Source: Nitrosomonas sp. (GTDB taxonomy: Bacteria; Pseudomonadota; Gammaproteobacteria; Burkholderiales; Nitrosomonadaceae). From it: a DNA stretch of 64,000 nucleotides. The notes under the pieces were generated by a model. It searched no databases. It saw nothing but the letters and a program-made list of their open reading frames with translations, and had not been told where the DNA came from. The stretch spans positions 1,777,308 to 1,841,307 of the forward strand of contig CP091135.1 of NCBI GenBank assembly GCA_021582655.1, read 5' to 3'. Position 1 is the first letter of the stretch. Every line of letters begins with the position of its first letter. The position numbers were made by a program, and so were the translations under genes. This document shows, in pieces, positions 55,786-59,193 of the stretch.

Positions 55786-56961
55786 TCAGATCACAACCAC
55801 ATTCGGCAACGGAAAGCCGTTGAAATTGCTGGCGTAAGCAGTCGTATAGGCACCAGCATTGGGAATATAAATGAAATCGCCTTCCTGCATATCGCCAGGC
55901 AACATCAAATCGTGTGTCAGAATATCGACCGAGTCGCAAGTCGGACCGGCGACAGACCATTGAATCGCGCTCCCCTTGCGGTCAGTAACAATCTCATAGC
56001 GCAATCCTTCGGTCATTTCGATCACACCGCCGAACATTCCCGCATCCCAGTAAATCCAGCGTTTGGCATTGCGCGTCGCAGTACCGACAACACGGCACAC
56101 AAAATACGCGGAATCGGAAACCAGGTACCGGCCGGGCTCCGCCATAACGCGAACATGGTCCGGCAGATCGGCGATGGCTTCGTTGATAACTTCGGCAATG
56201 ATTTCGATTGAAGGAATCGGTTTGACATGACGCACCGGGTAACCGCCGCCGATGTTCAGCAATCTCGGATTCAAGCCGGCTTGTCGCATATCCGCAAAAA
56301 CTTTCATCGCGCGCTCAATGCCGACACGCCAGTTTTGCGGGTTGCGGCATTGCGATCCGACATGAAAGGTTACCCCGGCCAGATCGGCTCCCAAATGTGC
56401 GGCTTCCTGGATAATCGCCTTGATATCGGCCAAATGTGTACCAAATTTTCCGGCCAGAGGCCAATCACTACCGATATTCGGTGTATCGATACGCAGGTAC
56501 ATCTTCGCATCGGGTTTCACACTCACGATCTTTCTCAATTCCTCCACACTGTCCAGAACATACCATTCAACCCCTTTGGCAGCCGCGTACTCAAGGTATG
56601 AACGCGATTTCATCGGGTTACTGTAGTAAATCTCCGCGGCAGGCACGCCCAATCTCATGAGCAGGTCAAGCTCGGCGATGGAAGCGATTTCAAATCCGAC
56701 ACCCTCTTCGATGAGTGTTTTCAACACCCGTTCATCCGGATTGGCTTTCACGGCGTAATGCGGATGCACGCGTGGCATCGCTGTTTTGAATCGTTGGGCC
56801 TTTTGTCGCACGATATCGCTATCGACCAGCAAAAAAGGGCGTTGATAGCCGGACTTTAATGCATTTTGGACATGCTCGAAATTCAAACTGGTTTCGGGGT
56901 GGGTATCAAACAGAACATCGAACGGTTCGGTTTTCTGCAGGGTGGCGGTGCGCTTGGACAT
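55786..56961 (-). CDS. Ornithine/lysine-type decarboxylase, PLP fold type III
   Basis: The 391-residue enzyme belongs to the alanine-racemase-like (group IV) decarboxylases: PLP lysine in PHYAVKANPDE, GVGFEIASIAEL, TFHVGSQCRNP, the phosphate-binding LNIGGGYPV, EPGRYLV and the active-site Cys in TCDSVD. It most likely converts ornithine to putrescine; lysine or both are possible. GGAG precedes the ATG. A 21-codon ORF ends 22 bases before it and shares its transcript, suggesting translational control. Confidence 0.9.
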   Translation of the reverse strand: MSKRTATLQKTEPFDVLFDTHPETSLNFEHVQNALKSGYQRPFLLVDSDIVRQKAQRFKTAMPRVHPHYAVKANPDERVLKTLIEEGVGFEIASIAELDLLMRLGVPAAEIYYSNPMKSRSYLEYAAAKGVEWYVLDSVEELRKIVSVKPDAKMYLRIDTPNIGSDWPLAGKFGTHLADIKAIIQEAAHLGADLAGVTFHVGSQCRNPQNWRVGIERAMKVFADMRQAGLNPRLLNIGGGYPVRHVKPIPSIEIIAEVINEAIADLPDHVRVMAEPGRYLVSDSAYFVCRVVGTATRNAKRWIYWDAGMFGGVIEMTEGLRYEIVTDRKGSAIQWSVAGPTCDSVDILTHDLMLPGDMQEGDFIYIPNAGAYTTAYASNFNGFPLPNVVVI

Positions 56962-56983
56962 GAGTGTACTCCTTTTAAAATGG

Positions 56984-57049
56984 CTACGTTTCTGGAATAT
57001 GGACGTTCACTAAATCAGCAGGGGCAAAAAAGTTCTTGATGCTTCTCAT
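56984..57049 (-). CDS. Candidate leader peptide of the ornithine decarboxylase gene (21 residues)
   Basis: The ORF starts at ATG 57049 behind the strong site AAGGAGG and reads MRSIKNFFAPADLVNVHI, with three more residues before the stop TAG. It lies between a strong promoter (57095-57122) and the decarboxylase start 22 bases downstream. A short ORF with a near-perfect ribosome site directly before a polyamine gene recalls the enterobacterial SpeFL leader, whose translation stalls with ornithine. Sequence similarity to SpeFL is not evident. It could also be a small protein in its own right. Confidence 0.65.
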   Translation of the reverse strand: MRSIKNFFAPADLVNVHIPET

Positions 57050-57094
57050 GATGACCTCCTTATCGGTGTGATTTTGTTTTTAAAAAATGCACGC

Positions 57095-57122
57095 ATTATA
57101 GACTGCATTTCCGGCAAATCAA
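57095..57122 (-). promoter_or_regulatory. Strong sigma-70 promoter of the leader-decarboxylase unit
   Basis: On the minus strand TTGATT (57117-57122) and the perfect TATAAT (57095-57100) are 16 bases apart. Transcription would start near 57088, leaving about 39 bases before the leader ORF ATG. The region from here to 57281 is AT-rich and holds no other gene. Confidence 0.7.
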
Positions 57123-57281: not shown

Positions 57282-59021
57282 TCAATCACAATGCTGCCAC
57301 AGAATTTTTTCCACCGCGTTTATGATCAAGGCCATTGAAACCGCACCCGGATCAGGTGTGCCGATGCTCTTTTCCGCATGCGGACGAGCACGACCGATTT
57401 TCGGAATCAGATTTGCCGTGGCATGCGCCGCTTCGTCAGCAGCGCGAGCGGCAACCGACCAAGCGTTCACGACTGACAAGCCTTGTACAGCACCGTTTGT
57501 CAACACTACTGAAAAAGGATGCAGCACGTCGACCAGGGTTTTATCGCCGGGCTCCGCTTTGCCAATCTCCCTAACCGCAGCCAGTACACTGGCGATACCG
57601 GCTGCAACGACCGAAGTATCGGGCTTCGCATCATCACCCAATGCATGGCCGAGAGTGCGCAAAATAACCCCCCAGAGTGCGCCCGAAGTACCACCCGCAC
57701 GATCCGACCACGCCTCGCCGGCCATGATCAGCAACGTTCCCGCGCCGACTTGCTCGTCCAGCACTTGCCGCGCCGCACTGACCGCCGCCGCCAACCCGCA
57801 CTGCATGCCGATACCGTGATCGCCGTCTCCCGCAACCGCGTCCAGTCGACCCAGTTCGTTCAGATTCGCTTCCACCACCACCTGCGCGGCTGCCAGCGCT
57901 TTATACACAATCGCCGCTGCGGCACGCGACACCGTAGCACCTTGCCGCACCGAACACCGGGACCGGGCATGCACCAGTGCAATCGCGTTATCTGCAAATG
58001 GCACGGAAGCGGTGACACCGCTACGGTGAAATGCCGGGGTATCCGCGGACGCAAGCCATGTCCGTTCAAGTACATCATCGAGCCAAAACAGCGTTAACGA
58101 AACACCCGCCATATCGAAGCTGGTCACCAATTCGCCCACCACTGGCTCGACGGCAATGAGTCCATGTACAGACAGCAATTGCTCGATCTTGCGGTAAACC
58201 ACAAACAATTCCTCATATTTCACCGCACCCAATCCGTTCAAAATCACCCCCACGCGAGCGCCTTGCAGTTTACCGGTATGTACGGGAATTTCGGCGAGCA
58301 GCTTATCGAGCAGCATTTCAGCCAAGCCGTCCGCAGTTGGTGCATCCAAACGATATAACCCCGATTCGCCGTGTATGCCCATACCGACTTCCATGCTGCC
58401 GCCAGTCACTTCGAATAACGGCTTAACGGCACCCGGCAAGGTACAACCGGAAAACGCCACGCCGAGCGAACGGACATGTTCATTGGCTTGCATGGCAATG
58501 CGCGCCACTTCATTGAGCGGCTCCCCTGCATCAGCGGCTGCGCCCGCGGCCTTGAGCACCGCCAGTACTCCCGCGATACCCCGGCGCCGGTGTCTCTCAG
58601 TGAACGGAGCGGAAGCGATATCGTCGGTGACCGCCACCGAATGTACATCGATTCCGATCGAGCGCAATTGGGTTTGCGCTTCATTGAAATTAAGTACATC
58701 ACCGGCGTAATTGGCATAACAAAACAAGACACCGCCACCCGCGTCGGCGGCCTGCGCCACATCTCGGATTTGCCGCGCGGAAGGTGCGGCGAAAACGTTA
58801 CCCATCGCCGCACCGTGAGCCATTCCTTGACCGACCCATCCGGCAAACGCGGGATAATGTCCGGAACCACCGCCGGTGACGATCACCACCTGACCGGGTT
58901 TGGCCTTGCGACCGCGAATCACACCGCCGTCCACCCGTCGGATCTTATTTCGATGCGCCGCTGCAAAACCCTGCACCAACTCGTCAGCGAAATATACAGG
59001 GTCATTGAATAAATAAGTCAT
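57282..59021 (-). CDS. ATP-dependent dihydroxyacetone kinase, DhaK-DhaL fusion
   Basis: The 579-residue protein has an N-terminal DhaK domain (GGGSGHYPAFAGWVGQGM, the covalent substrate histidine in MGIHGESGL) and, from about residue 370, a DhaL domain with AVAGDGDHGIGM, where the Asp residues bind magnesium-ATP, and AGGTSGALWG. Such fusions phosphorylate dihydroxyacetone, glyceraldehyde or related trioses directly with ATP. The start at 59021 (MTYLFND) is taken because the frame to 59063 runs into the MITE-like copy F; no good ribosome site is visible. Confidence 0.93.
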   Translation of the reverse strand: MTYLFNDPVYFADELVQGFAAAHRNKIRRVDGGVIRGRKAKPGQVVIVTGGGSGHYPAFAGWVGQGMAHGAAMGNVFAAPSARQIRDVAQAADAGGGVLFCYANYAGDVLNFNEAQTQLRSIGIDVHSVAVTDDIASAPFTERHRRRGIAGVLAVLKAAGAAADAGEPLNEVARIAMQANEHVRSLGVAFSGCTLPGAVKPLFEVTGGSMEVGMGIHGESGLYRLDAPTADGLAEMLLDKLLAEIPVHTGKLQGARVGVILNGLGAVKYEELFVVYRKIEQLLSVHGLIAVEPVVGELVTSFDMAGVSLTLFWLDDVLERTWLASADTPAFHRSGVTASVPFADNAIALVHARSRCSVRQGATVSRAAAAIVYKALAAAQVVVEANLNELGRLDAVAGDGDHGIGMQCGLAAAVSAARQVLDEQVGAGTLLIMAGEAWSDRAGGTSGALWGVILRTLGHALGDDAKPDTSVVAAGIASVLAAVREIGKAEPGDKTLVDVLHPFSVVLTNGAVQGLSVVNAWSVAARAADEAAHATANLIPKIGRARPHAEKSIGTPDPGAVSMALIINAVEKILWQHCD

Positions 59022-59044
59022 CGCTACGATCCACGGAAAAATGC

Positions 59045-59193
59045 TTAGGGAAATGCCGATCAATTCGGCAAGCGAAATGAAGTACGAGGCGCACGGAACA
59101 CGGCATCCGATATATCAACAAGATAGATGAGGAGACAAGTTACCTTCGCAACGAAGCAATGCGTTCGTGCGGCCCATTAACCAGCGTTCTTAG
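59045..59193 (-). mobile_element. MITE-like element, copy F
   Basis: Begins TTAGGGAAATGCCGATCAAT and ends CATTAACCAGCGTTCTTAG, with GGCGCACGGAACACGGCATC and ATCAACAAGATAGATGAG inside, in the orientation of copy A. It lies 24 bases before the dihydroxyacetone kinase start, in its promoter area. The rest of 59194-59335 shows nothing. Confidence 0.75.

Follow-up and report, generated by a model that had tools for sequence, protein, structure and literature searches.

A conserved 21-residue leader peptide before the ornithine decarboxylase gene of Nitrosomonas and its relatives, with a possible role in termination arrest

A short open reading frame (ORF) directly upstream of a probable ornithine decarboxylase (ODC) gene in the window, by which we mean the whole 64,000-nt stretch of Nitrosomonas sp. 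DNA that was analysed, encodes a real leader peptide of 21 residues that is strongly conserved among ammonia oxidisers and related bacteria. Among the best-ranked papers of an open-access literature search (most subscription papers lie outside it) none reported this leader, and we found no description of the peptide family, which, judged from sequence, may work like a termination-arrest leader.

Layout of the locus

On the minus strand a sigma-70-like promoter (57122-57095) is followed by a near-perfect Shine-Dalgarno sequence, the leader ORF, 22 nt containing AAGGAG, and the ODC gene. The features, with their basis in brackets, are as follows:

57117-57122, minus strand: -35 hexamer TTGATT (sequence; TTGATN-N16-TATAAT kept in relatives)
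57095-57100, minus strand: -10 hexamer TATAAT, 16 nt from the -35 hexamer (sequence and conservation)
57050-57061, minus strand: extended Shine-Dalgarno sequence (AAGGAGG followed by TCATC) upstream of the leader ATG (conservation in 79 distinct loci)
56984-57049, minus strand: leader ORF with ATG start, 21 codons, MRSIKNFFAPADLVNVHIPET, stop TAG (sequence, and conservation as protein)
56984-57001, minus strand: putative arrest motif formed by codons 17-21 (HIPET) with UAG (dN/dS of 0.05; near-constant stop)
56969-56974, minus strand: ODC Shine-Dalgarno sequence AAGGAG, 9 nt downstream of the leader stop
55786-56961, minus strand: fold-III ODC gene (Pfam PF02784/PF00278; solved relatives)

This layout, with a 21-codon ORF, AAGGAGG, TTGATT-16-TATAAT and 22 nt to the ODC ATG (56961), had been described in the initial annotation and was confirmed in the sequence. 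AAGGAGG occupies 57061-57055, leaving 5 nt to the leader ATG, and from the hexamer spacing the transcript is predicted to start near 57087 on the minus strand. The promoter, as TTGATN-N16-TATAAT, is present in 106/115 leader loci with at least 100 nt of upstream sequence. The leader initiation region is kept as well: 44 of 79 distinct loci share AAGGAGGTCATC unchanged, and NAGGAGGTCATC, summed over its listed forms, accounts for 68 of them. Across the 79 loci the leader stop lies 5-13 nt from the start of the ODC Shine-Dalgarno sequence. Upstream of ODC on the same strand is a dihydroxyacetone kinase gene (57282-59063), whose Dak1 and Dak2 domains are in one protein.

The best solved relatives of the window ODC are named lysine/ornithine and ornithine decarboxylases, and the protein contains PF02784 and PF00278, which we take to be the domains of alanine-racemase-fold decarboxylases. 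Because none of the NCBIfam models scored above its own cut-off on this protein, ornithine is considered only the probable substrate. The SpeF enzyme has the aspartate-aminotransferase fold, unlike the fold-III ODC. The two domains agree with the earlier view that the enzyme here is of another fold.

Conservation, selection and spread of the leader

An ODC similarity search was run over 61 genomes and the sequence upstream of the matches was then inspected. One genome (G014) gave no ODC match, and another (G019), with an ODC split over contigs, stands outside the leader counts. When a leader was scored as a 21-codon ORF ending in [HQ]IP.T with any stop allowed, it was found at 37 of 40 ODC-derived loci, and in all 37 the stop was TAG. 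The three loci that lack it have ODCs 71, 68 and 59% identical to that of the window. A pattern scan of one genome per species (84,980 species) returned 89 stretches, 80 of them listed; 79 of the 80 listed directly precede a window-like ODC, and the remaining one (L088) contains an internal stop and is attributed to chance. Record titles name Nitrosomonas, Nitrosospira, Nitrosovibrio, Nitrosomonadaceae or Nitrosomonadales, or give unclassified Proteobacteria. In all, 116 leaders were compared, with 62 distinct peptides, and the gap from TAG to ODC is 18-25 nt in every one.

Changes were counted by parsimony on an ODC tree of the 79 distinct loci. Since the scan pattern fixed D/E12, HIP, a G opening codon 20, T21 and TAG, the constancy of these positions in the pattern-chosen set is by construction, and this applies to the values of the 79 loci given here: dN/dS is 0.73 for codons 2-11, 0.28 for codons 12-16 and 0.05 for codons 17-21. 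In a set not chosen by pattern (29 ODC-derived loci with an ODC of at least 900 nt) the same three blocks give 0.77, 0.30 and 0.11. The ODC gene itself has a dN/dS of 0.126. Codons 17-21 accumulated 51.5 synonymous against 6.5 non-synonymous changes in the 79 loci, the latter all at codon 20, which encodes only E or V. At H17, I18, P19 and T21, all fixed by the pattern in the larger set, there were no replacements against 41 synonymous changes (79 loci) and none against 15 (29 loci). The binomial test for codons 17-21 gave p ~1e-22 and 9e-7 for the two sets respectively; codons 2-11 were near neutral (p = 0.006 and 0.1). Moreover, the leader stop did not change on the tree of 29 loci, whereas the ODC stop changed 11 times on the same tree.

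Codon choice is also uneven. Thr21 is encoded by ACG in 71/79 loci (56987-56989 in the window), a codon that makes up only 16% of those for Thr in the ODC genes of these loci, and Pro19 by CCT or CCC in 71/79 loci versus 45% (56993-56995), so that the P-site tRNA may perhaps matter. The base after the leader stop is C in 65/79 loci. The initial annotation had proposed a leader peptide tied to ODC and had made this depend on the peptide being conserved among relatives; such conservation was found, both in the presence of the leader at 37/40 loci and in the prevalence of synonymous changes in its C-terminal codons, which speaks for selection on the amino acids.

The search was then widened to 399 genomes of the order. 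ODC was found at E 1e-90 or better in 71, of which 70 were inspected (in the other, G481, ODC is cut by a contig end); one locus, L234, was masked. With the earlier loci included, an ORF ending in [HDQ][ILTV]P.T and a stop lies upstream of 65 of 99 ODC genes. All 65 leaders end in [HDQ][ILTV]P[VEL]T, although P and T were required in the member search, making the motif partly a matter of definition outside the genus of the window. Residue -5 is H in 59, D in 4 and Q in 2 of the 65; residue -4 is I in 58, T in 3, L in 3 and V in 1; and residue -2 is V in 33, E in 31 and L in 1. The motif is complete in families f1 (42/42), f116 (6/6), f125 (3/3), f106, f118 and f127 (2/2 each) and f7 and f12 (1/1 each), partial in f11 (4/6) and f115 (2/3, the third masked), and absent from f9 (0/2), f14 (0/2), f18 (0/10), f21 (0/6), f22 (0/6), f107 (0/3), f112 (0/1) and f122 (0/1). 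Of the 99 ODC genes from the order, 34 had no recognisable leader (one of these being masked), and ODC can therefore do without it. Among 11 more distant loci of the class (ODC-like match at E 1e-60) none had the motif.

Leaders of this wider family are 13-24 residues long, a single value of 26 being an artefact of start choice at a locus whose leader has 21, and the shortest natural one is MTADQFNLHIPVT, with 13 residues (L232). Over all families, 12-28 nt separate the leader stop from the start of ODC (63 loci with a value). The stop is TAG in 64/65, the exception being a TAA at L221, where ODC starts with GTG after a gap of 22 nt (read by hand). In some genomes the initiation region AGGAGGTCATCATG is kept before ODC without the C-terminal motif (L226, L228, L235, L236, L238, L243, L248 and L041). 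In two f22 genomes the ORF before ODC consists of MTR[AT]RNY and a stop alone, and three f22/g325 leaders extend into the ODC start.

A second occurrence of the motif, HIPVT-TAG 16 nt upstream of a carboxynorspermidine decarboxylase gene (L053), was rejected as chance, the frame not being kept among 29 genomes of that family, that of L053 included. In these genomes HIPVT recurs only in a close relative (L151, carboxynorspermidine decarboxylase 99% identical), and two further ones have RIPLT. Ahead of the carboxynorspermidine decarboxylase start (L150-L166), a block close to GTGACATAGTTGTAGAGAGCCGCCC is kept in many genomes regardless of frame and is possibly a promoter or untranslated element.

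Proposed arrest at the leader stop and its alternatives

The conserved residues are concentrated beside the stop and the stop codon is nearly constant (TAG in 37/37 loci, and in 64/65 in the order), as is characteristic of the termination-arrest class of leaders. Together with the ACG bias and the C after the stop, this is the picture to be expected if the terminating ribosome is the target. No fold was found that accounts for the conservation, and arrest combined with occlusion is thus the simplest model. We consider it an even call whether the ORF is a nascent-peptide termination-arrest leader through which a pathway product represses ODC by feedback. Translation of the leader with arrest is probable and repression of ODC by occlusion is slightly favoured; a pathway product, rather than ornithine, is suggested only tentatively as the ligand.

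Under the arrest model, ribosomes would load at the near-perfect Shine-Dalgarno sequence and translate the 21 codons until Thr21 occupies the P site and UAG the A site, where the nascent [HDQ][ILTV]P[VEL]T would slow or block release. UAG is not read by RF2, and RF1 would be the release factor affected. A ribosome whose A site holds UAG extends about 10 nt past the stop, and with the ODC Shine-Dalgarno sequence 5-13 nt away it should clash with a 30S subunit at ODC. Halted over or next to the ribosome-binding site of ODC, with the leader stop 22 nt upstream of the ODC start, it would keep 30S subunits off; likewise, at the 12-28 nt between leader stop and ODC start in the wider family, an arrested ribosome should repress. 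The stall would be promoted by putrescine or a related compound, giving feedback repression, and without ligand termination at the leader would be fast and ODC would be translated. The 13-residue leader suggests that residues near the peptidyl-transferase centre could suffice. Several observations count against an arrest leader. It is missing from many ODC loci of the order, the near-neutral codons 2-11 give no pointer to ligand-binding residues, and the motif has exceptions, namely Q for H17 at the ODC-derived locus L036, T, L or V for I18 in 7/65 leaders, and the one UAA (L221).

Other explanations were weighed against these data. It is extremely unlikely that the region is a structured RNA or riboswitch that contains an ORF by chance. 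Some codon choice is conserved beyond the amino acids, and pairing between the leader C-terminus and the ODC Shine-Dalgarno region is slightly above the shuffled control (0.156 vs 0.115), so a small RNA contribution may be present. Yet none of 15 folded leaders formed a stable structure above shuffles (mean z +0.93), the 79-locus alignment contained no consensus base pairs, 40 column shuffles being equally empty, and no Rfam family passed its threshold in the leader (two weak matches fell below). Moreover, the third positions of codons 17-21 are free: they changed 52 times, second positions 6 times and first positions never. Plain translational coupling, in which ribosomes recruited at the strong leader site go on to reinitiate at ODC and the peptide is irrelevant, would suit the extended Shine-Dalgarno sequence, the short gap and the initiation region retained in some families without the C-terminal motif; it does not predict protein-level selection on the last residues or a near-constant stop, and we hold it to be quite unlikely. 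A trans-acting small protein, for example an ODC inhibitor, could likewise be conserved in sequence and adjoin ODC, as the leader does in 79 of the 80 pattern matches listed and at 65/99 ODC loci, but the identity of the stop, the choice of Thr codon and the length range of 13-24 residues are better suited to a role on the ribosome, which leaves this explanation highly improbable.

The alternative with the most weight, although still unlikely, is an arrest leader of the opposite sign, in which ornithine frees or prevents the stall, or the stall opens the ODC site, so that the leader induces ODC. Precedents from the enterobacterial speF leader point this way: SpeFL is an ornithine sensor (PMC8429421) and Salmonella speF is induced by ornithine (PMC6386406). 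Induction of this kind is harder to reconcile with the lack of any hairpin masking the ODC site, either in the 15 folded leaders or in the 79-locus consensus, and with a stop that only 12-28 nt separate from the start of ODC, a distance at which an arrested ribosome should block.

Known leaders and candidate ligands

The arrest model was compared with published systems. SpeFL (ORF34) is likewise a short ORF before an ornithine decarboxylase gene. It undergoes termination arrest with RF1-mediated release inhibited (PMC8429421); speF expression depends on it, and its action runs through Rho, RNA structure and mRNA decay (PMC6386406). In E. coli MG1655 it has 34 residues with HIRR..H and shares no motif with the Nitrosomonas leader, in line with the initial annotation, which had seen no likeness; this sensor motif is absent from the window leader and, by eye, from the peptides of its relatives. 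In E. coli 257 nt separate the SpeFL stop from speF, against 22 nt here and 12-28 nt in relatives. The suggested parallel with SpeFL survives in part. The leader stands as an independent case, given the lack of likeness and an enzyme of another fold, but the direction of control would not carry over across such different distances to the start.

In its working, and not by kinship, the leader resembles the MAGDIS uORF of mammalian AMD1, also a short peptide with arrest at its stop codon, where the halted ribosome bars access to the start of a polyamine enzyme downstream; MAGDIS differs in being eukaryotic, in acting on preinitiation complexes, in sensing spermidine and in sequence (PMC13025110). 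That [HDQ][ILTV]P[VEL]T-UAG is an independently arisen bacterial counterpart, sensing a diamine such as putrescine and repressing its synthesis by direct occlusion of the start site, is a doubtful reading of the sequences. TnaC, a leader of 24 residues, arrests with Pro24, its last sense codon, in the P site while the stop occupies the A site, as proposed here, but responds to tryptophan, uses UGA/RF2 and works by keeping Rho off (PMC8429421). The spermidine-linked MdtU leader of E. coli mdtJI shares with the Nitrosomonas leader its strongest conservation at the C-terminus (PMC7815308); it differs in its 34 codons including the stop, in a stop 106 nt from mdtJ and in ending RNAL (E. coli MG1655), and the motif is not shared.

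Two further leaders are found at ODC genes. The odc1 (uORF-25-1) motif is a conserved short peptide at the ODC start in proteobacteria, which is alphaproteobacterial, has 11 residues, begins with UUG two nt before the main UUG start and lies in structured RNA (PMC8632094); the window uORF has 21 residues and an ATG start and ends 22 nt before the ODC ATG. The speF RNA element RF00518 is also a leader of fold-III ODC genes, but is a structured RNA. Its covariance model had no match in the window or its own genome and scored over the cut-off in 41/398 genomes of the phylum, where the ODCs are 33-38% identical to that of the window. Kinship with this alphaproteobacterial element was rejected, no shared uORF being seen by eye in 30 loci. 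A weak match under the cut-off (E 4e-4) occurs in a genome of the window's class (G398:C13:17095-17264).

Putrescine or a derivative, or ornithine, would be the main ligand candidates. Spermidine is less likely as a common ligand, since the window's own genome (G000, genus g1, 2.46 Mb, 83% complete) has no spermidine-synthase match and, among 41 genomes from this genus, just 10 have strong ones (E <1e-40). Weaker matches in 23 more bring the total with any match to 33/41, and PF01564 exceeds its family cut-off in 32/41, mostly in partial and weak matches. For nspC, none of the 41 genomes was above the cut-off. The uneven spermidine-synthase matches among these genomes raise the possibility that polyamine end products differ within Nitrosomonas.

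Metabolite-responsive arrest leaders are already known as a kind; what looks new is the C-terminal rule and the geometry. To our knowledge, few bacterial arrest peptides that sense metabolites have been described. If the arrest model is true, the natural leaders of 13-24 residues would provide a compact set in which to define a minimal nascent chain sensing a polyamine-pathway compound. Control would follow a simple roadblock logic instead of Rho or hairpin switching, and would account for how putrescine synthesis is set in ammonia oxidisers.
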